A DNA stretch of 33,685 nucleotides. It comes from a virus. Of this stretch, positions 15,154-33,685 are shown piece after piece. The position numbers and the translations under genes were made by a program. The notes beneath the pieces are model-generated. The model was given only the letters and a program-made list of their open reading frames with translations, made no database searches and was not told where the DNA came from. The stretch covers positions 1-33,685 of the IMG/VR virus record IMGVR_UViG_3300047548_001635; one strand, 5' to 3'. Every line of letters begins with the position of its first letter. The first letter of the stretch is position 1.

Positions 15154-15165
15154 ATCGGATGATCT

Positions 15166-16896: not shown

Positions 16897-16906
16897 GAGA
16901 TAAGAA

Positions 16907-17092: not shown

Positions 17093-17102
17093 GGAGAAAA
17101 CA

Positions 17103-17678: not shown

Positions 17679-17694
17679 CCCATAAATATGATCA

Positions 17695-17723
17695 CAGGCA
17701 GTGATCATGCTGGTCACTGCCTG
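17695..17723 (+). terminator. Hairpin after the major tail gene
   Basis: CAGGCAGTGA (17695-17704) pairs perfectly with TCACTGCCTG (17714-17723) around a 9-base loop. No U-run follows (ATTGCG), so it more likely protects the 3' end of the tail-protein mRNA or lowers read-through into the chaperone than terminates fully. Confidence 0.6.
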
Positions 17724-17736
17724 ATTGCGAGGTCTT

Positions 17737-18117
17737 ATGTCAGATGATAGAAAAGTCCTGGATTTGGACGAACTGTTTGGTCAAGCTCGAGCCGTAAAGG
17801 TGAAGTGGCAAGATCAAGAGTATGAATTGCTCAAGATGGAAGCCATCAGTCCAAAGGATGCCGTCCAATTCCAAAAGCTGCAGATCGCAGCTGGCAAACT
17901 CCAAATGAAGGACGATATGGACGATGCCTCAGCCAAACAGATCGAGAAACTGATCGACGACATGCTGAAGCTTTTGTGCAAAGAACTGCCGTTGCAAGAC
18001 ATGAAGTTTATGGTCAAGATGCGCGTTTTGACTTACTACATCGAGGAAACTCAGGGAAAAAAAGCCCTGGAGACCGCACTGAGCAAAGTGACTGGGGTGA
18101 AATCTTCAGCAAGCTGA
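17737..18117 (+). CDS. Tail assembly chaperone, short form (gpG-like)
   Basis: 126 residues, acidic and helical, with D/E-rich N-terminus (SDDRKVLDLDELFGQ), a beta strand (KVKWQDQEYELLKME) and K/D-rich helices. It lies between the major tail protein and tape measure, the canonical position of lambda gpG-like chaperones. GAGG 5 bases before the ATG supports 17737; a TTG at 17725 precedes that site. Near its end a slippery A AAA AAA allows -1 shifting into the overlapping frame. Confidence 0.8.
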   Translation: MSDDRKVLDLDELFGQARAVKVKWQDQEYELLKMEAISPKDAVQFQKLQIAAGKLQMKDDMDDASAKQIEKLIDDMLKLLCKELPLQDMKFMVKMRVLTYYIEETQGKKALETALSKVTGVKSSAS

Positions 18118-18389
18118 GTTTCTGGTATGGGCTGCCCTTTGCGGATGTGGCATCGATGCCAATAGCAGCGATCAACATCTATCTTGAACGGCTGCCAGCC
18201 AGACAGGCAGAATTGAAATTAATGCTTGCGGATGTGGTCTCGTATCCTCACACAAAGAAAGACGCGCAGGATACATCTATCAAGCAATGGCTTCGGGAAG
18301 CCAACGCAAATGTTGTCCAAAAGGCAAAGATCGCATCTCCTGCGATATTGAGACTGATGGGCATTGGAGTGAATCGTGACAGGAAGTAA
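17737..18389 (+). CDS. Tail assembly chaperone, frameshifted long form (gpGT-like)
   Basis: Predicted product of -1 frameshifting at 18057-18063: 109 residues of the short form joined to 108 residues from the overlapping frame, giving about 217 residues. The extension (GEIFSKLSFWYGLPFADV, then ASMPIAAINIYLERLPARQAE) has no credible start of its own and is highly regular, as expected for the T domain, which recruits tape-measure protein to the tail tube. It ends 14 bases inside the tape measure gene. The layout matches lambda G-GT and related siphoviruses. Confidence 0.78.
18057..18063 (+). promoter_or_regulatory. Programmed -1 frameshift site A AAA AAA
   Basis: In the zero frame the codons are CAG GGA AAA AAA GCC; bases 18057-18063 are exactly A AAA AAA, the X XXY YYZ form. 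Slipping back one base gives AAA AAA AGC and enters the open -1 frame. A short stem-loop candidate (CACT/AGTG, about 18079-18092) lies downstream. Confidence 0.8.
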
Positions 18390-20523: not shown

Positions 20524-21365
20524 TGTATAGGTTGATCAGTTTTGGTCTCGTCAGTTTGGAGTACTACGATCCGATGGATGATATCGGATCTGGTGAAACT
20601 CCAACATCATATTTTCCGCTGCCTGAAGGTGGTGCGATCGACAACTTCGGCAGTCTGCAAAAACACCCGGGCGTGGTAGAGCGTGTCAAGACCATCACGA
20701 TCTACGATGATTCGGATGAGACAGCAGTCAATCTCTATTTACAGTTGCTTGCATTAAGAGGCAAACGAGATCGTTTGTATCGACGAACGATCACAGGTGA
20801 CATTCACTGGATGTATGCCAGGCTCAAAGAGGTCAAAGCAAAACGAGACGGGTTTGCACAGAAGATCGAATTGCGCTTTGAAACTCAGGAGGCGTTCTGG
20901 CGTGGAGATCTGGGCGGAAAGTGGTATTTGAATGATGGCGAATATTTGAATACTGGTCTGTCACTTAACAGTGGTCAGACCTATCCACTCACAGCAAGCC
21001 CGACGTTGATCACTATCTCCCTGGGTGCAGCGACCGATGCAGGTCGAGCGCCAACCCGCGCGATCGAGATCACGATCAGTGCAGGGGCATCTCCCATGAG
21101 CAACATCACAATTGCTAGAGCCAATGGAGAGTCGATTACCTTCAGCGGAACGGTCGATGCAAATACGGATTTGGTTATAGACACCGGCTCGATGCAAATC
21201 ACCAATGATGGTGCAGATGCTTATAACGATCTGGTTATCTCCCCCACCGCTGATCTCGCAACCTGGTTCTCGTTCCTGGCTGGTGACAATGAGTTAACGA
21301 TCTCATTCACCGGCGGTGGAACAGGCAAGCAAGTTGAATTTCGTTATTACGAAGGTTGGTACTAA
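20523..21365 (+). CDS. Distal tail protein (Dit-like)
   Basis: 280 residues. The N-terminal half has the Dit/siphovirus tail-component layout: short beta-strands followed by RDRLYRRTITGDIHWMYARL and a strand reading FAQKIELRFETQEAFW. The C-terminal half (about 140-280) is a beta-sandwich (ITISAGASPMSNITIARANG, TFSGTV) like carbohydrate-binding or galectin-type modules found on Dit proteins. It follows the tape measure and overlaps the tail-tip gene by TAATG. Confidence 0.8.
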   Translation: MYRLISFGLVSLEYYDPMDDIGSGETPTSYFPLPEGGAIDNFGSLQKHPGVVERVKTITIYDDSDETAVNLYLQLLALRGKRDRLYRRTITGDIHWMYARLKEVKAKRDGFAQKIELRFETQEAFWRGDLGGKWYLNDGEYLNTGLSLNSGQTYPLTASPTLITISLGAATDAGRAPTRAIEITISAGASPMSNITIARANGESITFSGTVDANTDLVIDTGSMQITNDGADAYNDLVISPTADLATWFSFLAGDNELTISFTGGGTGKQVEFRYYEGWY

Positions 21366-23326
21366 TGCAAATTAGAAGCTTCTGGATAGACATCGAAAAT
21401 TCATCCGGCGGGAAGATGGGCAAGGGTCCGCTGCGAGCATCGAGCTTCAGAAACTCAGACCGTTTGTCTGCAAGCGGTGAGTTTTCCTTTGTTGTCTCGG
21501 CGGCAGATCCGAACATTTCTGCCCTGGCGCAAAAGCGTGTGGCAATCTGCAGATATATTGATCACACCGGAACTGTTCAAATTTTCGGTGGCGGCGTTAT
21601 TGAAAAGATCGTGCGCAAAATCCAACCAGATGGATCGATGATCCTGGTTGTATCAGGTAATGACCTGGCACGTGAGTTGACCTATCGTTCCGTTGGAACC
21701 CTCGATCTATCTGGCATTGGTGGAGCTGGTGTGAGTGATGCCCCTGAACAGGTCATGGCATTTGCTCCTGCCGGTTGGACAATTTCAGATGGAACGACCC
21801 TATCGAATTATTATGCTGGGTTCGACGGTGAATCAGTGTTGTGGTCTCTCGTGCGAATCTCCGCGCGATCGGGCGAACATTGGAGGCTTGGAAGCGGGCG
21901 TAATGTGGAATGGATAGGACCGGCATCTAACTTTGAAACCTCAGGTATACGAGCTATCCAACAGGTCAATGATCCAGTCAAATCCGAAACAGCGAGTGGT
22001 ATTGCCTTAATCACATCCCTTGAGGAAGAGTCTGATGCAGTGGAACTGATCTCACGCGTCATCCCGCGGGGATCTGGCAATGGTGGCGCATCTCTGACCT
22101 TATTTGCAGCAACTGATACTCCACCGATTGGATACACCGTAGACACTACTCTCAATTACGTCAAACGTGATGACGCTGAAGCAACCTATGGTCGCATCGA
22201 GCGGGCATTGGATTTCAAGGATATAGGTCCCTTGAGTAACACCACTCCGGATATGCAAGCGGCAGCCAATATGCTGTTGCAGGCATCTGTAGAGCATCTT
22301 AGACGCTATGGTGAACCTCAGGAGTTCTACCGGGTCGGTCTGGCAAATGTCGGTCAGATCCTCAAGCCTGGCACAACCATGCACCTGGTGTATCGAGGCA
22401 GAGCGAATGAATCTATTGTCTACGACTTGAATAGTGTTTTCAACATCGTTGAGGCTGAACGAGAGATTACAGCCGAGGGTATCGAAACAATATCCGTGGT
22501 CATCGCTACGATTGATCGTTTGCCAATGTCAGACGAAGAATACCTTGCAAGCCAGTCCATGAATGCGCGTGTTCTGGCTGCGCATCAGCAATTGGGAGCT
22601 AGTGTAGATACTTTCACGTATCGTGACGAGCTCGATAATGCGAAAGGTGCGTCATTCCGATTTTGGTTGGGCGATGAATATACATCGATCCAGCGTGCCG
22701 TGATGCGCTTCAGGATTCAACCTCTGCGGAGCACCGTGAAATCTGTAGCTGGTTCAAGTACTACCACTAGTAGCGGTGGAGGCTCAACTCAAACAAGTTC
22801 AAGCGGTGGAGGAAGTTCTGTTTCATCTGGCGGTGGAGATCACGCCCACTTTGTGCCTGTCGCAAATGGAACTACTGGTCAACCAGTATATTACGGCAGT
22901 GGATCTTTCCGATGTTCTGGTGGAAGTGGTATCAGTCCTGTTCCAGTCACTCTTGATTCTCCGGCGCATACTCATACAGTGACTATATCACCGCATACAC
23001 ACAACGTTACGATCCCAGAACACTCACATGATTTGACCCCAAATATAACCATGCAGTATGGGATTTTCGAGGAAAGTGGGGCAAACACCCTCGCGCTTGT
23101 AAATCTCGTGATCAAGCTAAACGGTGGTGCGGATCTTAATGGCAATGTGGATGATATTGGAAATGGCTGGTTCGAACTCGACATCACCGCAGATCTGGTT
23201 GATGATGTTTTTCGACCAGCACAGGAAAATAATGAGATCACCATTACCACTGCAACCGCAAAAACGGCCCGAATCGAGGCACAGGTCACGATCCGTGGCG
23301 TTGTACAAGCTGTAGCGTATTCATAA
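21365..23326 (+). CDS. Tail-tip / tail-associated protein with HxH-rich C-terminus
   Basis: 653 residues; the gene after Dit, where Tal/baseplate-hub proteins are found. The first about 430 residues resemble siphovirus tail-tip proteins (FSFVVSAADPN, a RVIPRGSGNGGASLT segment, YGEPQEFYRVGLANVG). A Ser/Gly-rich linker (about 465-500) leads to a fibre-like part with repeated His-x-His (DHAHF, AHTHT, PHTHN, EHSHD) and a beta-rich end. HxH rows in phage fibres coordinate metal ions in trimeric needles. Whether this protein has peptidase activity is not visible. Start at 21365 is set by overlap with the previous stop. Confidence 0.78.
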   Translation: MQIRSFWIDIENSSGGKMGKGPLRASSFRNSDRLSASGEFSFVVSAADPNISALAQKRVAICRYIDHTGTVQIFGGGVIEKIVRKIQPDGSMILVVSGNDLARELTYRSVGTLDLSGIGGAGVSDAPEQVMAFAPAGWTISDGTTLSNYYAGFDGESVLWSLVRISARSGEHWRLGSGRNVEWIGPASNFETSGIRAIQQVNDPVKSETASGIALITSLEEESDAVELISRVIPRGSGNGGASLTLFAATDTPPIGYTVDTTLNYVKRDDAEATYGRIERALDFKDIGPLSNTTPDMQAAANMLLQASVEHLRRYGEPQEFYRVGLANVGQILKPGTTMHLVYRGRANESIVYDLNSVFNIVEAEREITAEGIETISVVIATIDRLPMSDEEYLASQSMNARVLAAHQQLGASVDTFTYRDELDNAKGASFRFWLGDEYTSIQRAVMRFRIQPLRSTVKSVAGSSTTTSSGGGSTQTSSSGGGSSVSSGGGDHAHFVPVANGTTGQPVYYGSGSFRCSGGSGISPVPVTLDSPAHTHTVTISPHTHNVTIPEHSHDLTPNITMQYGIFEESGANTLALVNLVIKLNGGADLNGNVDDIGNGWFELDITADLVDDVFRPAQENNEITITTATAKTARIEAQVTIRGVVQAVAYS

Positions 23327-23336
23327 GGAGAAATTT

Positions 23337-23894
23337 ATGACACAAAATCACCATACACCAATTCCTGTAGCACCTGCCAAACCGCCTGCGGATTCGGAAA
23401 CCTTCAATGGACCGCTCGGCGAATTAGATGCAGCGATCACTGATCATGAAACGCGCATTGGTGATCTGGAAGCTGCAGCAATACCACCATCAGGTAACCC
23501 CACTGAATACCTCGATGGTGAAGGCAATTACACGGTTCCTGCAGGGACGGGAGCAAGTGTCGATGGTCATGTGATACAGGATGAAGGCATTGACATGCCT
23601 CAGCGAGCCAAAATCAACTTTGTTGGCGCAGGTGTAACGGTCACGAATGAAGCGGGGGGAACTCAGGTCTCGATCCCTGGTGCGGTTGCAACCGGCGTGC
23701 AGTCTGTTGTGGCTGGCAATAATATTTCAGTTGACAATACAGACCCGGAAAACCCAATCGTCAGCGCAGCTGCCGTTCAATCGGTTGTGGCTGGCACGGG
23801 AATATCAGTCGATAACACTGACCCTGAAAACCCAGTAATCAACGCAGTGGGTGGCAGTGGGGCAGATGTTTTACAAGTTCAAATATTTTCATAA
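23337..23894 (+). CDS. Tail fibre protein with tandem repeats
   Basis: 185 residues. AAGGAG precedes the ATG. N-terminal Pro/Ala-rich segment (PIPVAPAKPPAD), a helix (LDAAITDHETRIGDLEAAA) of the trimerising kind, a GNPTEYLDGEGNYTVPAG linker common in phage fibres, then two consecutive 26-residue units (VQSVVAG-x-x-ISVDNTDPENP). No enzymatic motif. It follows the tail-tip gene and is probably an accessory fibre. Confidence 0.72.
   Translation: MTQNHHTPIPVAPAKPPADSETFNGPLGELDAAITDHETRIGDLEAAAIPPSGNPTEYLDGEGNYTVPAGTGASVDGHVIQDEGIDMPQRAKINFVGAGVTVTNEAGGTQVSIPGAVATGVQSVVAGNNISVDNTDPENPIVSAAAVQSVVAGTGISVDNTDPENPVINAVGGSGADVLQVQIFS
23697..23852 (+). repeat. Tandem 78-base repeat in fibre gene
   Basis: Two in-frame copies (23697-23774 and from 23775) encode VQSVVAGNNISVDNTDPENP and VQSVVAGTGISVDNTDPENP, differing by substitutions at the DNA level, many of them synonymous, so the duplication is old or under protein-level selection. 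Confidence 0.75.
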
Positions 23895-23903
23895 GGAGCT
23901 AAT

Positions 23904-24257
23904 ATGGCTACATTCGAAGCAGTAATTCCGTCCGGGTCAGTAAATGGCAAGCAAATCAAAATTGTCGCAACGGCTACACCAGGCACGTTGATACATACCG
24001 CTGTTAACAGCCTCACCCAAATGGACGAAGTTTGGATCTGGGTGACGAATAATCATACGTCTGCGGTTGATCTTACGATCGAATGGGGCGGAGTGGCATC
24101 GCCTGATGATCAGATTAAATTAAGTGTCCCCTCCAAGGCTGGGGATTACCTTGTCAAGGCTGGAGTACGCATTAATAACAACCTGGCAATTCGCGCGTTC
24201 GCCAGTGTTGCAAATGTGCTGTGCATTTCCGCGAACGTAAATCGCATTACCCCATAG
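23904..24257 (+). CDS. Small virion-type beta protein
   Basis: 117 residues. AAGGAG before the ATG. Beta-rich: G-x-x-VNGKQIKIVATATPGTLIHTA, DEVWIWVTNN, and LTIEWGG. This arrangement recurs in small phage structural proteins encoded among tail fibre genes, probably a fibre-tip or decoration protein. No His/Cys motif or signal peptide. The function is inferred only from neighbours. Confidence 0.62.
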   Translation: MATFEAVIPSGSVNGKQIKIVATATPGTLIHTAVNSLTQMDEVWIWVTNNHTSAVDLTIEWGGVASPDDQIKLSVPSKAGDYLVKAGVRINNNLAIRAFASVANVLCISANVNRITP

Positions 24258-24264
24258 GTGCATC

Positions 24265-25143
24265 ATGACACGTCAAGCAAAACGCGGTCGATTACGAAGC
24301 GGGATTGGACAGTTAGATACTGTTAATGGGCAAATAAGTCCATTTGATGTCGAGTATCTTGTTATCGCAGGCGGCGGTGGGGGAGGTGGTGCTGGAGGCT
24401 CAATTGGTGTTGGAGGAGGTGGTGGTGGTGGATATAAACCAGGGACTTTATCCGGTTTAGTGCCGTCCACAAATTATCCAGTTACTATAGGTGGAGGTGG
24501 TGCTGGAGGTACATCAAGCGCAAACGGATCAAACTCATCATTTTCAACAGTGACCGCTACTGGTGGTGGTCGAGGCGCACCCACATCAGGTGTAGTTGGT
24601 GGCAATGGCGGCTCTGGAGGTGGTGGTAGTTATTCATCTAGCCCAGGTACAGGCATTGGAGGTCAAGGCAATAATGGCGGTGCGGGAAACTTAGGTGGTG
24701 GTGGCGATGCCAGAGGTGGAGGCGGCGGTGGTGCAGGGGCTGTGGGAGGTAGTGCCTCTGGATCTGTTGCTGGTGCAGGTGGTGCTGGATCGGCATCATC
24801 TATTACGGGCTCTTCGGTTACTCGAGCTGGCGGTGGAGGCGGTCAGGGCGAAAGTGGAGGTGTAAACCAATCTGGTGCAGGTGGTGCTGGTGGCGGCGGT
24901 GCTGGGAATAAGGGGACTGCCACAGCAGGAAGCGCCAACACAGGTGGCGGTGGCGGTGGCGGCGGTGCTAGTGGTGGTGGTGGTTCAGGTGCAAATGGCG
25001 GCTCTGGAGTTGTGATCTTGAAGTATCCTGCTTCATACACCATCAATATTGGTGCTGGTTTGACCGGGTCCGAAGGTGCGCCATCCGGTGGTTATAAGGT
25101 AGCTACGATTACCGCAGGCACTGGCAACGTGAGTTGGAGTTAA
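24265..25143 (+). CDS. Glycine-rich adhesin-like tail protein
   Basis: 292 residues, with about half glycine between residues 35 and 250. It opens with a basic stretch and a conserved strand (FDVEYLVIAGGGGGGGAGG), then Gly/Ser/Ala repeats (YKPGTLSGLVPSTNYPVTIGG, SGGGGSYSS), and ends with GSGVVILKYP. The start V-x-YLVIAGGGGGG and end G-SGVVI-x-x-YP pattern is typical of phage glycine-rich domain proteins, which can form polyglycine-II bundles and bind receptors. It is probably the host-range determinant. Proline-rich open frames on the other strand are only its shadow. Confidence 0.75.
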   Translation: MTRQAKRGRLRSGIGQLDTVNGQISPFDVEYLVIAGGGGGGGAGGSIGVGGGGGGGYKPGTLSGLVPSTNYPVTIGGGGAGGTSSANGSNSSFSTVTATGGGRGAPTSGVVGGNGGSGGGGSYSSSPGTGIGGQGNNGGAGNLGGGGDARGGGGGGAGAVGGSASGSVAGAGGAGSASSITGSSVTRAGGGGGQGESGGVNQSGAGGAGGGGAGNKGTATAGSANTGGGGGGGGASGGGGSGANGGSGVVILKYPASYTINIGAGLTGSEGAPSGGYKVATITAGTGNVSWS

Positions 25144-25145
25144 TC

Positions 25146-25682
25146 ATGGCATATTATGCTTTTTTAGACGTCAATAATATTGTGACTGAGATCATCGTCG
25201 GAAAAGATGAGGGCGATGATGGCATCGATTGGGAGCAATGGTATGGAGATTTCCGCGGGCAGCCATGCAAGCGGACATCCTATAATACTAAAGGCGGAAA
25301 TCATCTTGAGGGTGGTGTTCCGTTTAGGAAGAATTTTGCTGGCATAGGTTATGTTTATGATCCTGTGCGGGATGCGTTCATTCCGCCCCAGCCTGCAGGC
25401 AATTATGTGCTCGACGATGATACATGCCTTTGGAAGCATGCACCCGAATTGGGGATTTTGGGTGGTGTCTCTCCAATCATCGCCGCTGATGGAATAGATT
25501 TTGTAACTGTATACGTAGTTGGCGCAACTCCGAATTCGACCCAAGAGATAACGGTTAATGCTGAACCATTCTCAATCAATATAGGAGTTGATGGGTATGG
25601 CGAATTTGAACTATCCAGCGATGCATCTGGTTTGTTATTGGTTGAGTGGGGCGAGTTCAGTTTGGAGGTAGCTGCGCTATGA
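25146..25682 (+). CDS. Conserved tail-region phage protein (YNTxGGxH type)
   Basis: 178 residues. The first about 100 residues match a family common beside phage fibre genes: MAYYAFLDVNNIVTEIIVG, then TSYNTKGGNHLEGG, FRKNFAGIGYVYD, RDAFIPPQP and DDDTCLWK. The remaining part is a small Ig-like or beta module (IDFVTVYVVGATPN, EFELSSDASGLLL). Start at 25146 is set by GGAG 6 bases upstream. The role in the virion or as assembly factor is unknown. It overlaps the next gene by 4 bases. Confidence 0.7.
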   Translation: MAYYAFLDVNNIVTEIIVGKDEGDDGIDWEQWYGDFRGQPCKRTSYNTKGGNHLEGGVPFRKNFAGIGYVYDPVRDAFIPPQPAGNYVLDDDTCLWKHAPELGILGGVSPIIAADGIDFVTVYVVGATPNSTQEITVNAEPFSINIGVDGYGEFELSSDASGLLLVEWGEFSLEVAAL

Positions 25683-25873
25683 TCATTAAACAAGGCAAGC
25701 GGATCAAATTCTCAAATCCTGAGAAGTCCATTAAGAAGGAAGAATTAATAGCTGAAACTGCGAAACATAAGGGCAAGGGGATTCCCAGTCTGACAAAAAA
25801 ACAGCTTGAGGATGCTCTAAGGGCTGCGTTGAAGTTGCTGGATATGGTCAATGACCAAGATGTGATCAATTAA
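25679..25873 (+). CDS. Small lysine-rich phage protein
   Basis: 64 residues, strongly basic N-terminus (MIIKQGKRIKFSNPEKSIKKEEL) followed by a helix-hairpin-type segment (KGKGIPSLTKKQLEDALRAALKLLDM). It begins by ATGA overlap and is the last gene of the late operon, ending inside the bidirectional terminator. No known family. Confidence 0.58.
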   Translation: MIIKQGKRIKFSNPEKSIKKEELIAETAKHKGKGIPSLTKKQLEDALRAALKLLDMVNDQDVIN

Positions 25874-25912
25874 AATAAAAAGACCGTCGAAATCGACGGT
25901 CTTTTTATTTTA
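25871..25912. terminator. Perfect 20-bp bidirectional terminator
   Basis: Bases 25871-25890 are exactly complementary to 25893-25912 with a 2-base loop AA. The GC-rich core GACCGTCGA is flanked by A and T runs on both sides, so it works for the late genes (plus) and the integrase (minus). Both genes' stop codons lie inside the stem. Confidence 0.92.
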
Positions 25913-27557
25913 CGGGTAGAGGATTGCCTGGATTTTGGATCAGATATTCGATTTGCAGACTGTGTCTATAGATAGGTGCCCCCACAGGGGCATGTAATGT
26001 AAGCACAGTAGGGCTATTATACGTCAGTTCTTTTTTTTTATCAAAGTAGAGATCTACTTTCATGACCAGCTGCCTGCCGTGGCGATCGGCGAGGATCTGG
26101 TAGACGAGGCTGAGAAGGGTTTGACGGACGTGGACGGGGTCGTTGGAGTGTAGATTGGCGATGATGCGCTCTGCTGCACCACGTGCTTCAGCGTGAGTTG
26201 GGATTTTGATGGGTTCGGTCTTTTGGCTTTCAAGCTCGAGGATCTTGGCGGTGAGCTCGGCGTCTTGGGCTTCGAGGTTCTTTAGCTTTTTGAGAAGGGT
26301 GGCGGAGCCGCCCAGTTCGGCGATGGCATTGGCAGTGTTGGACAAGGCTTTTCGGACGGTGGCAAGCTCGGCACGATGGGAGGCGATGGCTTTATCCGCT
26401 GTGGCATTGTAGTCTGCCTGGTTAGATGCGAATTGGGTAAAGAGATTCACCAGGTTATTTTCATCCCTTAAGAAGCCTTCGATTCTTTTGATGACGAGTT
26501 TTTCTGCCAAGGCTGCGGGGATGGGTTTGGCGGTGCATTCCATTGCCTGTTTGGAATTGTTGCAACGATAGCGGCGATAGTCGGAGCCGGATTTCTGACG
26601 TGAGGTGAGACCGTTCATGGCTCCCCCACAGCGGGCACATTTGATTATGCCGGAGAGTGCGTAGGTGGCGTTGACGCGGCGGGGATGATACAGGTCGCTT
26701 TTCGTGCTGGAGCGTTTGGCGTAGGCGGCAATGATGGCTTGGACTTTATCCCAGGTGTCGCGGGGCACGATGGGCTTGCAGTAATCTTCAACGACGAGAT
26801 CGCCAAACTTCAGGATGCCGATATAGATAACGTTTTGAAAGAAGGAGGTGTACCCGCTTTGGCGGCTATAGAGATGGGTGGCGCGGTGGATCTGTGCCAG
26901 GGATTTGCCCTCGGCTTTCATCATGAAGGCTTTGAGGATGCGGTGTTCGTAGCGTGGATCTGGGTCCCAGCGGTGGGCGGTGTGCTCTACACCTTGTTCT
27001 GATACGACGGTGATCGGATTGCGCTTGATGCCCTTGGGCGGTGTGCCAGGCACGGCACCTTGTTTGACGAGATGACGCAGACCGCGCCAGGCACCCATGC
27101 TTGCCTCTTCAGCTTTTTGTTGGTTCGAGGTATCGATGAGAGTCTCGATGACGGGAGCGAATTTTCCTTCAGGTATTTTGTCGGTGAGGGAATGAATGAT
27201 GATGCCACGGCTTCGAAGCGTGGATTTATAGAATTGGGCATCGTAGGGACCGCCGCGGCTGAAGCGGGCGTGATTCCAGATCAGTAATCCCTTGGGGCGC
27301 AGCGCTTTGGATGCGCTGAGGGACATCATGTATTCAAATTCATTGCGTTTGTTGACCGTGGTGCCTGATTTGTGGACGTCTTCGAAGGGCGGTTGGATGA
27401 GGACAAGCCCCCATTTGGTGCAGTATTCTTCGATGATGTGGCGTTGTTGTTCAACGGATCGATCCTGGGTGGGTCCGCCTGAATCGCGCAGGTACGCCCA
27501 GACGGTGGAGCCTGGGGGAAGTGTGGAGGGAGGCGGTTCGAGGCGAAGGTCGGACAT
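25905..27557 (-). CDS. Large serine recombinase (integrase)
   Basis: 550 residues. Catalytic resolvase-like domain with the active serine at S26 in AYLRDSGG and further R98/R101 in NHARFSRGG. Recombinase domain around 170-300, zinc ribbon C307-x2-C310 ... C332, C341 (CARCGGAM, YRCNNSKQAMEC), and a coiled coil at about 385-445. Such enzymes insert phage DNA at a host attB without host factors. The usual first residues YxRVS are altered to YLRDS. It is transcribed opposite to the late genes and is the last gene of the lysogeny operon. The window holds a second, tyrosine-type recombinase. Confidence 0.92.
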   Translation of the reverse strand: MSDLRLEPPPSTLPPGSTVWAYLRDSGGPTQDRSVEQQRHIIEEYCTKWGLVLIQPPFEDVHKSGTTVNKRNEFEYMMSLSASKALRPKGLLIWNHARFSRGGPYDAQFYKSTLRSRGIIIHSLTDKIPEGKFAPVIETLIDTSNQQKAEEASMGAWRGLRHLVKQGAVPGTPPKGIKRNPITVVSEQGVEHTAHRWDPDPRYEHRILKAFMMKAEGKSLAQIHRATHLYSRQSGYTSFFQNVIYIGILKFGDLVVEDYCKPIVPRDTWDKVQAIIAAYAKRSSTKSDLYHPRRVNATYALSGIIKCARCGGAMNGLTSRQKSGSDYRRYRCNNSKQAMECTAKPIPAALAEKLVIKRIEGFLRDENNLVNLFTQFASNQADYNATADKAIASHRAELATVRKALSNTANAIAELGGSATLLKKLKNLEAQDAELTAKILELESQKTEPIKIPTHAEARGAAERIIANLHSNDPVHVRQTLLSLVYQILADRHGRQLVMKVDLYFDKKKELTYNSPTVLTLHAPVGAPIYRHSLQIEYLIQNPGNPLPVK

Positions 27558-27579
27558 GGTGTTAAATGCGATTTACAAA

Positions 27580-28149
27580 TTAAGGCTTTGCAGATTGCAA
27601 TTCAGAAGCAGCCTTTTCAAGTAACAGATTGATATTATCGATATTTTTTTGTGCTGCTGAAAGAGCCGATTGATCTTGATTATCGAGTACCAAATTGTAG
27701 TTTTGACCAAGTAATATCATTTCCTGATTGATTTCATTGATGGTCTTGTGAAAAGTTTCGTATTCAGTTGGCACACCATTCATTGAAGACATTTCAGAAA
27801 CGCGCGTTTCTAAATTGAATATGATGGATTGGGTTTTGAAATAGAAATCGTTATTGTTGGCTATTGCTATATCTTCAATAAGCTGATTGTTTTGAATAAG
27901 AAAATCAGTCCATGTTTCTTTAAATACATCAAAACGGGTGGATACAACTAATGGGTAATCTTGAGAGCCTATTGATGGTGTTTCGGTATTAATTGGCAGC
28001 TCAGTTGGAATCTGAGATGGCGCACTGGTTGGAATAAGCCCAAATTTGTTTATGACTGAACTTGTAACAAGGCAAAATATACAAAAGCCAATTAAGCCAG
28101 CAATGAAAATTCCAACTATAAGCAATCTATTTTTTGTCTGTTTATTCAA
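27580..28149 (-). CDS. Membrane-anchored helical protein, unknown
   Basis: 189 residues. One N-terminal membrane span (about 9-31, LLIVGIFIAGLIGFCIFCLV), then a Ser/Thr/Pro-rich stretch (PTSAPSQIPTELPINTETPS) and a long helical outer domain rich in Asn/Gln (about 65-185). Topology suggests a cell-surface facing protein or one in the periplasm. The gene is clearly AT-rich compared with the integrase. It starts 1 base after the previous gene. No family recognised. On the lysogenic operon, so expression from the prophage is likely. Confidence 0.7.
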   Translation of the reverse strand: MNKQTKNRLLIVGIFIAGLIGFCIFCLVTSSVINKFGLIPTSAPSQIPTELPINTETPSIGSQDYPLVVSTRFDVFKETWTDFLIQNNQLIEDIAIANNNDFYFKTQSIIFNLETRVSEMSSMNGVPTEYETFHKTINEINQEMILLGQNYNLVLDNQDQSALSAAQKNIDNINLLLEKAASELQSAKP

Positions 28150-28150
28150 T

Positions 28151-28333
28151 TTATTTTCCCTTTCCTTTGATGCGTTCTGGATCAGTGGCGATGTAAAACC
28201 CTATTGGGGCGACGAAACATAGAAGATAAACATATTCCCAATCGTTGAGGATTTGTTGGGGAATAAATATGAAAATAAAGGCTACGATGGCGGCGACTGT
28301 GAGGACATGCTTTTCACGCCTGGTCAGTATCAT
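28151..28333 (-). CDS. Small two-span membrane protein, unknown
   Basis: 60 residues with two hydrophobic segments (VLTVAAIVAFIFIFIP and YVYLLCFVAPIGFYIA) and charged ends (LTRREKH, RIKGKGK). ATG at 28333 overlaps the stop of the upstream gene as ATGA, so I prefer it to an in-frame ATG at 28351. Function unknown; sits between two other membrane-protein genes of the lysogenic operon. Confidence 0.62.
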   Translation of the reverse strand: MILTRREKHVLTVAAIVAFIFIFIPQQILNDWEYVYLLCFVAPIGFYIATDPERIKGKGK

Positions 28334-28653
28334 CGGCGCACCTTTATCCATTTGATGTTGCGAGGACGGATGATCATCAGCACGAGAGCTGCACACATGA
28401 AAGCGGTGCTGAGGACAGCAATCATCTTAATGGGATGATCTGGGAAGTTTCGAATGGCAAGATTGTAGGCGGCAAAAAATGCCGCAGGCGGAAATAACCA
28501 TAGATCTACACGATGCAAAACTTGTAACGCAATTTTTTCAATGGAAGGGTAAATAATTGCGAGAAAGAGCCGTAATGCAATGTATAGTTTTATATCTATG
28601 GGAGCACGTTCCCATTCATTTTGATTTGGTGGAGGTGTTTTCCTGTAATTCAT
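28330..28653 (-). CDS. Membrane protein, unknown
   Basis: 107 residues. Soluble, proline-rich N-terminus (NYRKTPPPNQNEWERAP), then three hydrophobic stretches (YIALRLFLAIIYP, WLFPPAAFFAAYNLAI, MIAVLSTAFMCAALVLMII) and a basic end (RNIKWIKVRR). The ATG at 28653 is chosen because longer frames run deep into the repressor gene. It overlaps that gene by 38 bases. No family recognised; probably made together with the repressor in lysogens. Confidence 0.62.
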   Translation of the reverse strand: MNYRKTPPPNQNEWERAPIDIKLYIALRLFLAIIYPSIEKIALQVLHRVDLWLFPPAAFFAAYNLAIRNFPDHPIKMIAVLSTAFMCAALVLMIIRPRNIKWIKVRR

Positions 28654-29038
28654 CTGGTAAGGGGTCAGTTGTATATTTTGATAGTAGTTTTGCCAGTTCG
28701 ATCTGAAGTTTCTTTGGAGCCTTATCCCAATTGCGAAGGACAAATATCCGAAGTGGATTGATGGGGTCAATATCTAATACTTCGTAGACTATTTTTCCTA
28801 ATTTCTCAGCCAAGACCAAAATATAAAGTTCATCTTTAGGGGCATATCTTCCTTTAACCCAATCACTGATTAACTGCTGTTTGAAGGTCACTCCATATTT
28901 ATTGTCAGATAACCATCTGGCAAAGGCAGAAAAATTCGACCTCTGATTGGGCTGTGCTTTTTCCCACTCGATGAAGGCTGTGAAGATAAATTCCTTGAAC
29001 GGATTTGCTGGGGGATCAGATTTTGCCATTTCACTCAT
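28616..29038 (-). CDS. HTH repressor (CI-like role)
   Basis: 140 residues from the ATG at 29038. The middle has an Xre-type helix-turn-helix: FSAFARWLSDN, then FKQQLISDWVKGRYAPKDE (about 50-75), followed by a helix and a longer C-terminal region with KAPKKLQIELAKLLSKY. There is no visible LexA-type Ser/Lys peptidase domain, so it may not self-cleave on DNA damage. A GTG at 29065 is in frame but lies inside the operator and is rejected. It is divergent from the Cro-like gene and the natural ligand for the inverted operators at 29056 and 29098. Confidence 0.7.
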   Translation of the reverse strand: MSEMAKSDPPANPFKEFIFTAFIEWEKAQPNQRSNFSAFARWLSDNKYGVTFKQQLISDWVKGRYAPKDELYILVLAEKLGKIVYEVLDIDPINPLRIFVLRNWDKAPKKLQIELAKLLSKYTTDPLPDELQENTSTKSK

Positions 29039-29055
29039 TTTATAACAAAAGAGAC

Positions 29056-29109
29056 TGTGTAACACGGGATTGACAAATTCACAACACTATGTATAATCCG
29101 TGTTACACA
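29056..29109. promoter_or_regulatory. Paired inverted operators
   Basis: TGTGTAACACGG (29056-29067) and its exact reverse complement CCGTGTTACACA (29098-29109) flank the promoter. Each contains its own palindrome GTGT-A/T-ACAC. The centres are 42 bases apart, about four helical turns, so two bound dimers would face the same side of the DNA. Repressor and Cro-like protein are the probable ligands. Confidence 0.8.
29070..29097 (+). promoter_or_regulatory. Rightward early promoter
   Basis: TTGACA (29070-29075), 16 bases and TATAAT (29092-29097), both perfect. One operator ends 2 bases before the -35 and the other begins right after the -10, so binding would block the RNA polymerase. A clear leftward promoter for the repressor is not seen; a weak TTGTGA/TACACA pair exists on the minus strand. 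Confidence 0.82.
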
Positions 29110-29144
29110 TTTTCACGCTATAACGTAAATACAAGGACAACGTA

Positions 29145-29447
29145 ATGAAAACGCCCGATGTAACCAAAAATTATAGAAATTCATTGAACCTTTCCCTGCG
29201 TGGTTTTGCTGACGCAATCAATGAAAAATTGATCAACACAAATGTTAGTCATGCAACCGTTGCGAGATGGGAGGATGAGGAAAAGCCAAGAGAGCCCGAT
29301 TTACGCCTTCTATTCGAATGCATTGCCACCTACCCCAATAGTTGGATTGCTTCGTGGGCAATTGAGATCATTTCTGCCATGTATCCAGACCTAGTTCAAA
29401 GTGGCGTGATCGCCTTCAACCTTCGTAAAGTTGCACAACCCCAGTAG
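29145..29447 (+). CDS. HTH protein, Cro/anti-repressor-like
   Basis: 100 residues. AAGGA lies 6 bases before the ATG. Xre-like HTH: LSLRGFADAINEKL, then VSHATVARWEDEEKPREPD (about 15-55), followed by a helical C-terminus with many Trp/Ile (YPNSWIASWAIEIISAMYP). First gene after the operator-controlled promoter and divergent from the repressor, so a Cro-like role is likely. It could also be a second repressor or an excision regulator. Confidence 0.72.
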   Translation: MKTPDVTKNYRNSLNLSLRGFADAINEKLINTNVSHATVARWEDEEKPREPDLRLLFECIATYPNSWIASWAIEIISAMYPDLVQSGVIAFNLRKVAQPQ

Positions 29448-29454
29448 GTGACGA

Positions 29455-29691
29455 ATGGAAGTCACCACTGGGACGATCGGAGAAGGTCGAAGCCAGTGGA
29501 CCTATGAAGTGACGGTCGAATTCGTGCAGGTGCCAGATGATAAGCGAGACGCGTATTGGGCAACGCTGGCATGGCTTGCGGATGAGATCTTGAAAGAACT
29601 GAGCGCAGAGTCGGGACGGGCGACACCACGCTCAGTTGAACGGGAGACCGAGGCGATGGTCTCTGAAGAGATTTTAGACCCGAGTTTTTGA
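29455..29691 (+). CDS. Small acidic protein, unknown
   Basis: 78 residues. The first half is beta-rich (VTTGTIGEGRSQWTYEVTVEFVQVPDD), the second a helix (YWATLAWLADEILKEL) with an acidic end. It starts 7 bases after the Cro-like gene's stop, so it is probably in the same early transcript. No known domain. Confidence 0.55.
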   Translation: MEVTTGTIGEGRSQWTYEVTVEFVQVPDDKRDAYWATLAWLADEILKELSAESGRATPRSVERETEAMVSEEILDPSF

Positions 29692-29995
29692 TTTGTGGGA
29701 TTTTTCGTTGAACGAGTTTTGAACGTGAATCACGAGGCGATGGCTTCGTTGTTCGGAAGGCGTGATGCTGCCGGAGGCGGCGTTTATCGGTAGGCAGGTT
29801 CGAGTCCTGGTCGCGCCAATAGGCGGGTGGTTCCCGCCGAAGAGAGCAGGCAAGTTCGTTCTCTCCTCCTTTTGTGATGGTGTGCTTTTTGGTCCGCGTT
29901 TCACACGTTTGATCAGGATGCACACCAGAGCAAGGGAAACCAATCGATAGTGATCAACAGTCCCTTACCAGGGACGCAACCAGAAGGAGATAACC
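29692..29995 (+). other. Non-coding stretch with hairpins
   Basis: About 300 bases without a credible gene. It contains the tRNA-like piece, then GGCGGG/CCCGCC (29823-29839, loop TGGTT), GAGAG/CTCTC around 29843-29868 followed by CTCCTTTTG (a weak terminator), and GTCCCT-TACC-AGGGAC (29960-29975) just before the AGAAGGAGA ribosome site of the next gene. Peptides read here in any frame look like products of tRNA-like sequence. Confidence 0.5.
29759..29818 (+). tRNA. tRNA-like remnant, D-arm missing (possible attachment core)
   Basis: GGCGTGA (29759-29765) pairs in all 7 positions (one G-U) with TCGCGCC (29811-29817), followed by A. A T-arm with the invariant GGTTCGAGTCC (29797-29807) has 4 of 5 stem pairs, and CTGCC/GGCAG can pair in between. 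At 60 bases it is too short for a normal tRNA; no D-arm fits. An alternative start near 29736 gives a longer fold but a poor acceptor stem. It may be a decayed tRNA, a mimic, or the tRNA 3' end carried as attP for the downstream tyrosine recombinase. Confidence 0.4.
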
Positions 29996-30346
29996 ATGTC
30001 ATATAGGCTAAAGATCGTAACGGGTGATAAGAACCTGGACGCAAGCGAAATTGAAAATGCCGCACGAATAAATCGTGAGCGGCGCAATGAGATGGAATAT
30101 TTGCGCACTCACCATGATGATGAGAGTGCGCTTAAGCGATGGATCTGGAAACGGATCCCTAAAATTTTGGAAACTGTCTTTTTCATGGCAGTTGTTGGCA
30201 TTGTGATTTTGATAGCACGTTCTATGCAGTACGCAAGCACCGTGCGGACACTAGACGCTGAAGATTACGCGATCGGTATTTTGGGCGGAGCCATATGTGT
30301 TGGCATTTTAGGCATGTTCCTTTGGCTGCCGTTCAACAACAAATAG
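29996..30346 (+). CDS. Membrane protein, unknown
   Basis: 116 residues. AAGGAGA precedes the ATG. A charged N-terminal half (ENAARINRERRNEMEYLRTHH) is followed by two membrane spans (ILETVFFMAVVGIVILIA and YAIGILGGAICVGILGMFLWL). No family recognised. It sits in the early region, after the tRNA-like piece and before the recombinase. Confidence 0.65.
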   Translation: MSYRLKIVTGDKNLDASEIENAARINRERRNEMEYLRTHHDDESALKRWIWKRIPKILETVFFMAVVGIVILIARSMQYASTVRTLDAEDYAIGILGGAICVGILGMFLWLPFNNK

Positions 30347-30355
30347 GAGAACACC

Positions 30356-30751
30356 ATGACAAACCAATCAACCAATATTATTACATCGATCCGTGAAGCG
30401 CCACGAATGCCAGACTATGTGATCTGCGGATTATTGAGCAGCTTCGATGGCAGGACCTATGAAGTGATTTACGTTATGTACGGGGAAACGGGCTACCGCC
30501 CTACCACGTGGGGCAGACAGACCAAAGAGTGGATCGCTGAGAAGAACGCCGAACTGGGGATCGATCCGGCTACACAGGAAGCTTATTACAACTGTTCGGT
30601 ACTCAATACCTGGGCAAATTACTCGAAGATCTACGAACAAATATCCAAGTTGCTTGAGCCTATATGCACAGGGACTGATCCGGTTCATTGCGATGGCGTT
30701 AACTGCCCAGTTCATGGGAAATCGGAGGCGGGTGATGCTACAGCAAATTAA
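30356..30751 (+). CDS. Hypothetical phage protein with Cys-rich end
   Basis: 131 residues. Beta-alpha N-terminus (YVICGLLSSFDGRTYEVIYVMYG), a helical middle, and a C-terminal C-x-x-x-x-x-x-H-C-x-x-x-x-C-x-x-H pattern (ICTGTDPVHCDGVNCPVHG) that could bind zinc. AGGAGA about 5 bases before the ATG. Overlaps the recombinase gene by 17 bases. Confidence 0.6.
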   Translation: MTNQSTNIITSIREAPRMPDYVICGLLSSFDGRTYEVIYVMYGETGYRPTTWGRQTKEWIAEKNAELGIDPATQEAYYNCSVLNTWANYSKIYEQISKLLEPICTGTDPVHCDGVNCPVHGKSEAGDATAN

Positions 30752-31715
30752 TCTCGCAACATTACAAATTGCGCCTGCCATGCATTGGGTTGAGACTTTC
30801 GGTTCGTGGCTGCATAGTGATCATCGCAAGTTTGGCAAGCGCGGAACGCTGAGCGTTAATTCCATCGATGCCTATTTGCAGGATGCACGGCATCTGGATC
30901 GTTTTTATGAACAGGCATACGGGGAGAGCTTTTCGCCTGGCATTTTGAATGAAGCATTGGTCAAGTCTTATTTTGAATGGATGGACATGAACAGGGTTGC
31001 ACCTGCGACATTCAACCGTCGTTTAGCAACGGTGAAGCTGATGAGTCAGTGGCTGGGCATTGGTGATGTGACCTTATGTGTTGAGCGCAAGGTCACGGAA
31101 TATGAACCACGCGACAAGACCCCAGATGAATACCAGGCTCTCGAATCGGTGGCAGGCTCAATGTCCCATTTGAGGCGGCAGACCGAGAAACACGTCACCT
31201 TGGGCGAACGGGATCAGATCGCATTTCGACTGATGGGTATCCCCCACGGGCTGCGCATCTCGGAGATCGAGGGGCTGAACGTGGATGATGTGAATTTCGC
31301 CCGCCTGCAGATCCGTGTACGCGGCAAGGGTGGTTCTGATCAGAAGATCGAGATGGCAGAGGATATGGCGACGTTGATATCGCAGTGGATCGAGCGAATG
31401 CCCAAGCCAGTGGAAGATGATGGGGGAACGCCTTTGTTTGTGAATTGGGATGGCAAGCGGGTTACTGGCGGTCAGTTACGCAGACGGTTGAAGTTGATCG
31501 GCGAGAAGGCAAAAGTGGATGTGACCTGCCACGATCTGCGGGCTTCGATGGGCTGCCAGTTTTATGGGATGGCATTGCAACAGACCGGCTCTCAATACGC
31601 GGCGGCTGATGCCACTCGCAGGCAGATGCGACACCGTGATTTTCGGACAACTCAAAAGAACTACTTACGCGCCAGCCGGACGCAGATCCGCGCGGTGGTG
31701 GAAGCGATGGCATGA
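30735..31715 (+). CDS. Tyrosine recombinase/integrase
   Basis: 326 residues from the ATG at 30735 (GGAGGCGG a few bases before; GTG at 30732 is the alternative). N-terminal core-binding helices (about 15-110). Catalytic residues are visible: R174 in HGLRISEIEGL, K198 in RVRGKGG, H266-x2-R269 (CHDLRAS), H300 (MRHRDF), and nucleophile Y310 (QKNYLRAS). It is full-length and apparently intact. It could mediate integration, resolve multimers, or act at dif-like sites. Its presence beside a complete serine integrase is unusual. Coupled by ATGA to the next small frame. Confidence 0.88.
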   Translation: MLQQINLATLQIAPAMHWVETFGSWLHSDHRKFGKRGTLSVNSIDAYLQDARHLDRFYEQAYGESFSPGILNEALVKSYFEWMDMNRVAPATFNRRLATVKLMSQWLGIGDVTLCVERKVTEYEPRDKTPDEYQALESVAGSMSHLRRQTEKHVTLGERDQIAFRLMGIPHGLRISEIEGLNVDDVNFARLQIRVRGKGGSDQKIEMAEDMATLISQWIERMPKPVEDDGGTPLFVNWDGKRVTGGQLRRRLKLIGEKAKVDVTCHDLRASMGCQFYGMALQQTGSQYAAADATRRQMRHRDFRTTQKNYLRASRTQIRAVVEAMA

Positions 31716-31849
31716 ATCTAAAAGATCGATTTGCGGAGTTTGTTTTGGCGGCATTTGACCGCTTTATGGATTTCATCACGCTTGGAACGTGGACACGTGT
31801 CCGCGGAAGCGTGGTGCCACAAGTCAAGATAACCAAAAGGAGAAACTGA
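31712..31849 (+). CDS. 45-residue small protein
   Basis: Reads MNLKDRFAEFVLAAFDRFMDF, then ITLGTWTRVRGSVVPQVKITKRRN. Its ATG overlaps the recombinase stop (ATGA) and its TGA overlaps the next ATG (TGATG), so both ends are coupled. An amphipathic helix and a basic tail are visible. No family; its reality rests on the two overlaps. Confidence 0.5.
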   Translation: MNLKDRFAEFVLAAFDRFMDFITLGTWTRVRGSVVPQVKITKRRN

Positions 31850-32895
31850 TGTTCACACAAACGCAAGAAACCATAGATACCATCCTGGAACAGGCCCGCG
31901 CCTTGGATTTAGATAAAGCTGATTTTTATGGTCAGCCAGAGTCGTTCACGTTTGATAAGAACGCAAATATGGTGGTGCCAGGCACATTGTTTGGTGGAGT
32001 GCCACCAATGCCAATGTCAGAGTGGGCAACACGGCAGCTTTATCAGAAACTGGGTCCTGCCGTGTTTGGAAAAGGATCAAATAAAAGCCTGCCAAACGAT
32101 TATCTAACAGCTTTATTGCCCGATCGACGCGCAACGCTTTTGAATGATCATGTCAAAACTTTACCGGTTGGATCAGATGGTTGGTTTGTACGATCATATA
32201 AAGGTGAAATTCGCGCAGTATTGAGCAAAGGCTATACCAATATTGGCAATACTGAGCTTGTTGAAATTGCAGAAGAAGTGGTTCGACAGAACCCAAGCAG
32301 CGAGTTTTCATTGGTGCGTCCAAATTTGACTCCGGACACCCTGCATTTGAAAATGATCTGGAAGAACGTGAATCCAAATCCAGATCGCAAAGATGGTGGA
32401 TGGGGAATTGGAGTCTATATCGGGAATGGGGAAATTGGCAATCGCAGATTGAGCGTATTCCCAATGTTGCAACGTCACTCCTGCACGAATTCGATCATTG
32501 TTGAGAGTGAACGAGGCGTGGAGTTTATCCACCGTGGCAGCCGAGATTCGAAGATGGCAATCCTGAAAGCCATCATTGCGGAGTTATTTCCGATCGCGGC
32601 TGATGCATTGAACAAGATGATCAAGGCGGACAGCGAGAAGATACCCCAATTTACAGATGTGCTGAGCGGATTGGCAAAGCAATATGGATGGTCGGATGTT
32701 GTAACAACCAACGTTGCTGTAGGGACAGAAGGGCGAGATACACGTGCAGGACTGATCAACGGCATCACGTTTGCAGCCCATAGTTCCAATTTATCCCAGG
32801 ATGACCAAGCAGATATGGAGATCCTCGGTGGTCGCATCCTTCTTGCTTCCGATAGCGTGTTCCATCAAGCCGTACAGGCGGCAAAAGGTAAATAG
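31849..32895 (+). CDS. DUF932-like phage/plasmid protein
   Basis: 348 residues. AAAGGAG lies 8 bases before the ATG. The order of motifs (GWFVRSYKGEIRAVLSKGYTNI-x-NTELVEIAEE, a central LHLKMIWKN, GIGVYIGNGEIGNRRLSVFPML, RHSCTNSII) resembles the DUF932 (phage/plasmid-like, TIGR03299) family, whose members share R-A-x-L-S-x-x-Y-x-x-I/L-x-N and a late GxN/NxE pattern. Its function is not known, but such proteins occur in replication/recombination modules. Followed by a terminator. Confidence 0.55.
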   Translation: MFTQTQETIDTILEQARALDLDKADFYGQPESFTFDKNANMVVPGTLFGGVPPMPMSEWATRQLYQKLGPAVFGKGSNKSLPNDYLTALLPDRRATLLNDHVKTLPVGSDGWFVRSYKGEIRAVLSKGYTNIGNTELVEIAEEVVRQNPSSEFSLVRPNLTPDTLHLKMIWKNVNPNPDRKDGGWGIGVYIGNGEIGNRRLSVFPMLQRHSCTNSIIVESERGVEFIHRGSRDSKMAILKAIIAELFPIAADALNKMIKADSEKIPQFTDVLSGLAKQYGWSDVVTTNVAVGTEGRDTRAGLINGITFAAHSSNLSQDDQADMEILGGRILLASDSVFHQAVQAAKGK

Positions 32896-32900
32896 GAAGG

Positions 32901-32958
32901 AATTGCCGCGCCGGTCTCCTGCTGCTAATGATTTCAAAAACGGCGCGGCAATTTTCTT
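32901..32958 (+). terminator. Long-loop terminator after DUF932-like gene
   Basis: AATTGCCGCGCCG (32901-32913) is exactly complementary to CGGCGCGGCAATT (32941-32953), loop of 27 bases, followed by TTCTTTC. It separates the DUF932-like gene from the next unit. Confidence 0.75.
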
Positions 32959-32975
32959 TCATACGGAGATTCGAG

Positions 32976-33320
32976 ATGGAACTGAGGGAATTGGTCGTGA
33001 TTGTTGTGCTGGTGGAATTGGGATTGCATTATTTCCCCTGGCGAATGTTGATCCGCAGGAAGCTTCCACGCCTGGCGGCATACACGTTGGGATTGTTGGG
33101 GATCATGGTGCCATTTAGTTTGTGGCTTATGGATCGGGATGAGATCGAGATCCTGCAAACGATGTGGATTGTGATCATTTCGGCTGGCTTTACCGTTTTC
33201 GGCTTATATGGTCTTGATCGGTACTTCGATCTCGAACGCAAGGATGTGGAAGCTGGTCAGATCGAAGTCATGCTTAAGAAGCTGATCAAGGATGTCCTCG
33301 ATGAGCGGCAGGGCAAATAA
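32976..33320 (+). CDS. Three-span membrane protein, unknown
   Basis: 114 residues from the ATG at 32976 (CGGAGA 8 bases upstream). Hydrophobic segments LVVIVVLVELGLHYFP, YTLGLLGIMVPFSLWL and WIVIISAGFTVFGLYG, with a charged C-terminal helix (RKDVEAGQIEVMLKKLIKDVL). The coding strand has a long frame on the other strand that is only its shadow. Unknown function; holin-like by size, but it stands in the early region. Confidence 0.65.
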   Translation: MELRELVVIVVLVELGLHYFPWRMLIRRKLPRLAAYTLGLLGIMVPFSLWLMDRDEIEILQTMWIVIISAGFTVFGLYGLDRYFDLERKDVEAGQIEVMLKKLIKDVLDERQGK

Positions 33321-33546
33321 ACGGGATACAGAGATCCGCGCTGCGTTGGAGTCCATTGGCGGTGAGCTGGTGGCGATACGAACTGCGGTGCCCCTAGCGC
33401 AGTTGCGGGTACGCCAAGCAAAGGAACGCACCGGGCTGGACGATCTGTTGAGCCCTGCCATCGAAGAGATGGAAGAAGTAAGCAAGGCGGTGGCTGTGAT
33501 CGGTGAGCAGGTCCGCGCTGCGCTGGCGAAGTTGGAGAAGGTGTGA
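33301..33546 (+). CDS. Small helical protein, unknown
   Basis: 81 residues from ATG 33301 (84 from ATG 33292); AAGGAT lies about 9 bases before the later start. All-helical with repeated E/A/K heptads (ALESIGGELVAIRTAV, EEMEEVSKAVAVIGEQVRAAL), probably a coiled coil. Overlaps the membrane-protein gene and the next start (TGATG). Confidence 0.58.
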   Translation: MSGRANKRDTEIRAALESIGGELVAIRTAVPLAQLRVRQAKERTGLDDLLSPAIEEMEEVSKAVAVIGEQVRAALAKLEKV

Positions 33547-33685
33547 TGGCGCGCGTCAACTTTGAAAGCAGTAGTAGGAAGATTCGTGATCTGCCCATTT
33601 CCTTGCGTTTTGGTGGGCAGGCGCGGCGCTCCCAAAAAAGGTTAGTGACGGTCAAAAATTCATGCAACATAACATGGGATTATGT
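33546..33685 (+). CDS. Partial gene cut by the window end
   Basis: ATG at 33546 overlaps the previous stop (TGATG). The frame stays open for 46 codons to the window edge (MARVNFESSSRKIRDLPISL...). No family can be named. The end of it overlaps a dif-like palindrome, so the reading frame may not be genuine past about 33640. Confidence 0.4.
   Translation, partial: MARVNFESSSRKIRDLPISLRFGGQARRSQKRLVTVKNSCNITWDY
33667..33685. promoter_or_regulatory. dif-like or operator palindrome at the window edge
   Basis: ACATAA (33667-33672), 7 bases, TTATGT (33680-33685). Arms ending in ATAA and starting TTATGT around a 6-8-base centre are the form of Xer/dif sites. The window ends exactly at the last arm, so the full site cannot be judged. 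Confidence 0.3.

Follow-up and report, generated by a model that had tools for sequence, protein, structure and literature searches.

The interval between repressor and integrase is known as a site of defence genes in one group of temperate phages: in K139/phiO18P-like prophages of Vibrionaceae, an antiviral hotspot is located between the cI repressor and the integrase (Rousset et al. 2022, PMC9122126), and its variable cargo includes restriction-modification (R-M) and ATPase/nuclease defence genes (PMC9122126). Ltp of Streptococcus phage TP-J34 is a superinfection-exclusion lipoprotein; it is composed of one lipid anchor, one serine-rich spacer and one active repeat domain, and its gene lies in the lysogeny module (PMC3952083). 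In phage lambda, rexAB is expressed from the prophage together with cI, and gp30/gp31 of mycobacteriophage Sbash are comparable (PMC6426596).

Here we analyzed one 33,685-nt stretch of DNA from an IMG/VR virus record, referred to as the window, in which three small genes (P0001, P0002 and P0003, the trio) lie between a CI-like repressor and an integrase. Like the Vibrionaceae hotspot, this slot carries variable cargo from CI repressor to integrase in a temperate phage. Different from that hotspot, the slot belongs to other phages, with a serine integrase and Chloroflexota-linked hosts, and membrane-anchored ectodomain proteins prevail in it, along with a small protein overlapping the repressor. 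With a probability of roughly 50%, we read the trio as lysogeny-operon cargo that would remodel the envelope of the lysogen, most likely for superinfection exclusion or defence. The features of the locus are as follows.

25905–27557, minus strand: large serine integrase, last gene of the operon (Pfam Resolvase and Zn_ribbon_recom, PHROG integrase).
27580–28149, minus strand: P0003, 189 aa, with N-terminal TM anchor, S/T/P spacer (residues ∼30–60) and four-helix-bundle outer domain, as judged from the L089 homologue and AlphaFold.
28151–28333, minus strand: P0002, 60 aa, 2-TM protein with basic C-terminal tail; a 49% identical homologue is in the equivalent slot of L038.
28330–28653, minus strand: P0001, 107 aa, small membrane protein overlapping the repressor, with 2-TM hairpin and amphipathic N-terminus; member of a 7-member family.
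28616–29038, minus strand: P0004, CI-like repressor, first gene of the lysogeny operon; 51% identical to the repressor of L157, and the relatives' profile puts a repressor upstream of the integrase in ∼50 loci.
29057–29108, no strand assigned: putative operator pair GTGTAACACGG ... CCGTGTTACAC around the promoter (GTGTWACAC, two copies).
29070–29097, plus strand: sigma-70 promoter, 12/12 consensus, between the two putative operators.
29145–29447, plus strand: Cro-like divergent regulator, with a weak HTH_3 match; homologues in relatives are 33–61% identical.

As described in a first-pass annotation of this DNA, the three membrane-protein ORFs are tightly packed on one strand. P0001 overlaps the repressor by 38 nt and P0002 by 4 nt (ATGA), P0002 and P0003 are separated by 1 nt, and the 22 nt between P0003 and the integrase form the largest intergenic gap from repressor to integrase. 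P0003 has a TTG start codon with AAAGGAAAGGG upstream, and the ATG of P0001 has no clear Shine-Dalgarno sequence. The minus strand from repressor to integrase showed no terminator-like site. GTGTWACAC occurs at two sites in the window, both between the repressor and the Cro-like gene and on either side of the plus-strand promoter; on sequence grounds, the divergence of these two genes with putative operators around a promoter is a classical switch layout. Owing to this layout, expression of the trio alongside the repressor is likely, and the three genes are probably co-expressed with the repressor in the lysogen. The proposed placement in a lysogeny operon is thus supported by gaps of at most 22 nt, by the lack of a minus-strand terminator and by the operators around the opposing promoter. 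The GC content of the trio is 38.4%, compared to 50.0% for the window, and is the lowest of all 1,074-bp stretches in it; however, the repressor is equally AT-rich (39.2% GC), so the AT-rich block is the lysogeny module and not the trio alone, as had been suggested. The neighbour called an integrase is one indeed, but it is not the sole recombinase; a second one, of the tyrosine type, is located at 30735–31715 of the window, and several relatives retain both types.

Further observations concern the rest of the genome and its relatives. Positions 29798–29819 of the window (GGTTCGAGTCCTGGTCGCGCCA) resemble a tRNA 3′ end; ARAGORN calls no tRNA there, and the site is possibly an att site or a tRNA remnant. 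Virus Rctr41k carries a tRNA-Thr gene near its own Cro-like gene and XerC, and also a detached C-terminal serine-integrase remnant, 65% identical, after its tail genes (L017, 2944–3585). In G006 (L022, 8008–9840), the serine integrase frame continues into an apparent host pfkA start (MPRLGILTGGGDAPGLNAVIRA), which suggests a prophage junction at pfkA. The tandem proteins encoded at 2422–3774 and 3725–5008 of the window have near-identical N-terminal motifs, and the first matches ParB-like/DNA methyltransferase families. Contig G001 (IMGVR_UViG_3300043399_001053, L007) is 99.985% identical to the window over the sampled overlap 19908–33557 and covers 11832–20000 too; it extends ∼8.3 kb beyond the end of the window and then re-enters positions 1–794 at 95% identity. 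This suggests a circular or permuted genome of ∼42 kb, with the replication region outside the window.

Hydropathy analysis gave one single strong helix (2.96) for P0003 and two helices (2.28 and 1.35) for P0002, which agrees with the one-span and two-span topologies assigned at first. P0001, initially taken as a 3-span protein, has one strong C-terminal helix (2.63) and two weaker segments (1.59 and 1.32). Homologues without the first hydrophobic segment retain the hairpin DLWxFPP..F ... FPxHPI...SxFMxSTLxLxLLRP; therefore, the 3-span assignment is doubtful, and a 2-TM hairpin describes P0001 better. In the AlphaFold model, P0003 has an N-terminal helix, a disordered spacer (residues 25–56, mostly with pLDDT <50) and a four-helix bundle (helices 62–92, 100–121, 128–157 and 160–186; pLDDT mostly 92–98), in line with the S/T/P linker and helical domain of the earlier description; the architecture suggests that this domain faces outward. 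Foldseek searches with P0003 against PDB and BFVD gave no match at E≤1e-3. The AlphaFold model of P0001 is of low confidence, and the fold search with it was empty.

P0003 is like Ltp in plan. Hydropathy and AlphaFold indicate an anchor, a flexible Ser/Thr-rich spacer and a small, presumably outer domain, and the gene is part of the lysogeny module. Different from Ltp, the anchor of P0003 is a TM helix, without an N-terminal lipobox. No homology between the two proteins was detected, and searches against Pfam, NCBIfam, PHROGs and PADLOC at E up to 1 gave no match to the Ltp lipoprotein family. Phage phiO18P, an Aeromonas phage, encodes a 195-aa TM and helical protein in its CI repressor-integrase interval (L205, 1648–2235). 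As a homologue of P0003 it was rejected (weak BFVD match, E 0.034; hhalign probability 7%), although its position and architecture are P0003-like.

In agreement with the initial view that the trio is unlike known proteins, no credible match was found in Pfam, PHROGs, PADLOC or NCBIfam, and the PADLOC HMMs matched no catalogued defence system. Single-protein scans with the trio returned the near-identical contig only, and that with P0003 gave no relative in genome_contigs; tblastn of the phage collection with P0003, a P0001 homologue and a short-form homologue gave no useful match. Relatives were therefore reached through an integrase alignment, which yielded 66 viral loci and 65 genome loci; the genome loci closest by integrase are mainly Chloroflexota/Anaerolineae MAGs. 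P0001 has six homologues (28–50% identity; L042, L091, L104, L157, L158 and L166), P0002 has one (49%; L038), and P0003 has one over its whole length (26%; L089), which is a lipoprotein there and fits the lipobox pattern. All of these are beside a CI-like repressor, and within the repressor-integrase interval wherever the same stretch includes the integrase. Three kinds of candidate were set aside: a weak P0002 match in G347 (L179), which sits in an R-M-like region; the L069 slot protein as a P0003 relative; and many A5 matches in genomes, which cover the TM helix and linker only. Weaker relatives of the P0003 outer domain occur in Chloroflexota genomes outside the repressor-integrase slot (L167, L168, L169 and L170); in L167 and L168, the P0003-type domain adjoins a gene resembling phage major capsid protein.

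A first synteny comparison, made through terminase relatives, had found in G002 the gene order of the window: the integrase gene is followed by that of a TM and S/T/P-linker protein, which weakly matches Excalibur, and then come the repressor and Cro-like genes. The ∼50 loci with a repressor upstream of the integrase are mostly viral contigs, and the host-linked ones are mainly Chloroflexota MAGs. TM helices are predicted in 60 of 113 slot genes (53%), compared to 79 of 524 size-matched other genes (15%, p 2e-16); with an identical gene caller the slot count is 51/99 (p 6e-14), and TM proteins with an S/T/P linker number 22/119 in the slot versus 3/524 among other genes (p 2e-14), all these p-values being optimistic as the slot loci are phylogenetically non-independent. 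Genes were called by a simple ORF search, and TM helices were counted from hydropathy; since the ORF caller missed some genes (L033, L035, L039 and L091), the TM enrichment is more likely to be under- than overestimated. Slot content varies between the ∼50 repressor-slot-integrase loci, indicating high gene turnover. On this comparison, the slot is a short, membrane-gene-rich turnover site between two conserved phage genes.

The slots share a recurrent layout: one or more small TM proteins, then a TM or lipid anchor with an S/T/P spacer and an interchangeable outer domain, then the integrase. In L038, the repressor is followed by a 112-aa 2-TM protein, the P0002 homologue, a TM-linker protein and the integrase; in L042, by an 83-aa protein, the P0001 homologue, a 76-aa TM protein, a TM-linker-Excalibur-like protein and the integrase; in L091, by the P0001 homologue, a 47-aa TM protein, an Excalibur-like protein and the integrase. 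The outer domain on the shared anchor-spacer plan is helical in the window and L089, of Excalibur type in L037, L042, L038, L065 and others, SNase-Excalibur in L158 and MmpS-like in L026. Excalibur-type domains are calcium-binding. The L026 protein (6229–6984) contains a TPR, a TM helix and a Mycobact_memb (MmpS-like) outer domain, and similar TPR-TM proteins are present in L029 and L032. The first-pass annotation had treated the trio as one system, whose members should co-occur in other prophages. The layout does recur in L038, L042 and L091, so that conserved co-occurrence is found at this level, but the members occur separately: for each of P0001, P0002 and P0003, homologues were found where the other two are absent, and P0001 goes with the repressor and not with the cargo. 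As the layout recurs while the outer domain and the cargo vary, the trio is one set of cargo among others in this slot, and not an invariant machine of three parts.

Known anti-phage genes are present in some of the slots, as expected of an antiviral hotspot. The P0001 homologue of L157 is followed by an HSDR_N protein, and an HSDR_N protein is also found in the slot of L041. In L158, an OLD/AriA-like AAA/TOPRIM protein and a TM-linker-SNase-Excalibur protein come after the P0001 homologue; this stretch ends before any integrase. The OLD/AriA-like protein, which recalls P2 old and OLD-like nucleases, is absent from the window and indicates the type of cargo the slot takes. N6/N4 methylases are in the slots of L055 and L066, and the other candidates include PADLOC's PDC-M66A (L048) and PDC-S48 (L047 and L063) and a HipA-like protein. 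L027, in which a repressor could not be identified, has a type IIG R-M gene upstream of its integrase. TM-anchored SNase-Excalibur proteins are encoded in the lysogeny regions of two unrelated phages, L158 (6336–7292) and Aeribacillus phage AP45 (L206, 2746–4155), in the latter between a regulator and a recombinase; they are possibly membrane-tethered nucleases acting against entering DNA.

P0001 belongs to a family of 7 members with 28–50% identity; in 6 of them, the gene has 38 or 44 nt in common with the 3′ end of the repressor gene (38 for P0001 itself). ORFs of at least 60 aa overlap 27 of 54 repressors, and 26 of these 27 are in the same relative frame; overlapping ORFs with a TM helix were found at 17/54 repressors versus 23/611 other genes (p 5e-10). 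Among 12,355 ORFs, 11 of no more than 130 aa end with [AG]HW[VIL]; all 11 are at or just after a repressor 3′ end, with differing cargo downstream. The short members (57–70 aa; L026, L028, L034, L037, L040, L041, L065 and L080) have no predicted TM helix. Short and long (P0001-type) forms are apparently alike in their N- and C-terminal regions, between which the long form has its hairpin; they were joined by a bridging L028 sequence and the common C-terminal motif, the profile score being not significant. The family has no match in Pfam, PHROGs, PADLOC, NCBIfam or the phage records searched, the literature having been looked at briefly. Since its ATG has no clear Shine-Dalgarno sequence, P0001 is suggested to be translationally coupled to the repressor; by its distribution, which tracks the repressor, it is a lysogeny-core protein and not cargo.

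These data allow one tentative generalization for Chloroflexota-linked serine-integrase phages. A lysogeny component of these phages may be a small protein with the C-terminal motif AHW[VI], either short or with a 2-TM hairpin, whose gene overlaps the repressor 3′ end, usually by 38–59 nt and almost always in one frame. Its translation would be coupled to that of the repressor, and the protein would either tether or regulate the repressor at the membrane or be the core exclusion protein, with swappable surface-anchored cargo downstream. It is similarly conceivable, if doubtful, that P0001 works within the genetic switch as a membrane or partner protein tuning repressor activity, with P0002 and P0003 as the sole cargo; this is compatible with the superinfection-exclusion explanation. 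The single relative frame, the excess of TM overlaps at repressors and the confinement of the C-terminal motif to repressor 3′ ends while the downstream cargo changes all point in this direction; however, the short forms have no predicted TM helix, interaction with the repressor is conjecture, and simple translational coupling could explain the overlap by itself.

For the trio as a whole, superinfection exclusion or defence is the reading we prefer, owing to the operon packing, the lack of a minus-strand terminator and the refilling of the slot with membrane-anchored proteins or defence genes, to the precedents of Ltp and the Vibrionaceae cI-integrase hotspot, and to the confident model of the P0003 outer domain. 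The repressor transcript made in the lysogen would supply all three proteins in the dormant state. The N-terminal helix of P0003 would sit in the membrane, and its disordered S/T/P spacer would carry the four-helix bundle out through the wall; there the bundle may meet the tail tip or DNA-entry machinery of an incoming phage and block injection, as Ltp does. The site of action would most likely be phage DNA entry at the outer membrane face. P0002, itself a small membrane protein, may act as a partner to the anchored one. P0001, whose synthesis would keep pace with that of the repressor via the 38-nt overlap, may be either another component in the membrane or a regulator linked to the repressor. 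Counting against exclusion, the trio has no family or defence-library match, P0001 and P0003 have no fold match, and P0001 follows the repressor and no particular cargo. Because its outer domain is found in Chloroflexota genomes outside the slot, P0003 may have a general envelope role.

A rival reading is lysogenic conversion without defence, in which the ectodomains alter the host surface (adhesion, biofilm, or binding of nutrients or ions) and the benefit to the phage comes from fitter lysogens. We consider this unlikely: the diversity of outer domains, including Excalibur-type and MmpS-like ones, and the presence of the P0003 domain in cellular genomes are consistent with it, but dedicated defence genes (OLD-like, methylases and HSDR_N proteins) occupy the same slot, and rapid turnover at one single site fits an arms race. 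Abortive infection through a RexAB/Sbash-like pore, with small membrane proteins depolarising the cell once a sensor detects phage growth, is more improbable still. Membrane protein genes in a cI operon, at a position probably expressed from the prophage, do recall cI-rexA-rexB and Sbash gp30/gp31, which include a 4-TM protein (PMC6426596). However, the trio lacks both a cytoplasmic RexA-like sensor and a RexB-like protein with 4 TM helices, and the Pfam search matched it to neither RexB nor DUF4747; the trio consists of 1- and 2-TM proteins only, and the 2-TM proteins P0001 and P0002 vary independently. Spurious or decaying ORFs, which the AT-rich region, the TTG start of P0003 and the failure of a codon-based gene caller to find P0001 might suggest, can be dismissed, since for each ORF a 26–50% identical protein homologue lies in a corresponding slot, the reading frames are intact and motifs are conserved; by these comparisons the three are real genes.

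The antiviral cI-int slot was already known from Vibrionaceae prophages (PMC9122126) and is seen here, by sequence comparison, in another phage group; new is the placement of P0001 in a small-protein family that overlaps the repressor 3′ end and has a conserved AHW[VI] C-terminus. The cI-integrase defence hotspot is thereby extended to the Chloroflexota, a phylum whose phages have been little studied; in these phages, membrane-anchored proteins with swappable outer domains, including one putative tethered nuclease, dominate the slot. Such a slot is a place to mine new exclusion proteins, and through the conserved repressor-overlapping family, a connection of immunity with the membrane would become open to direct testing.
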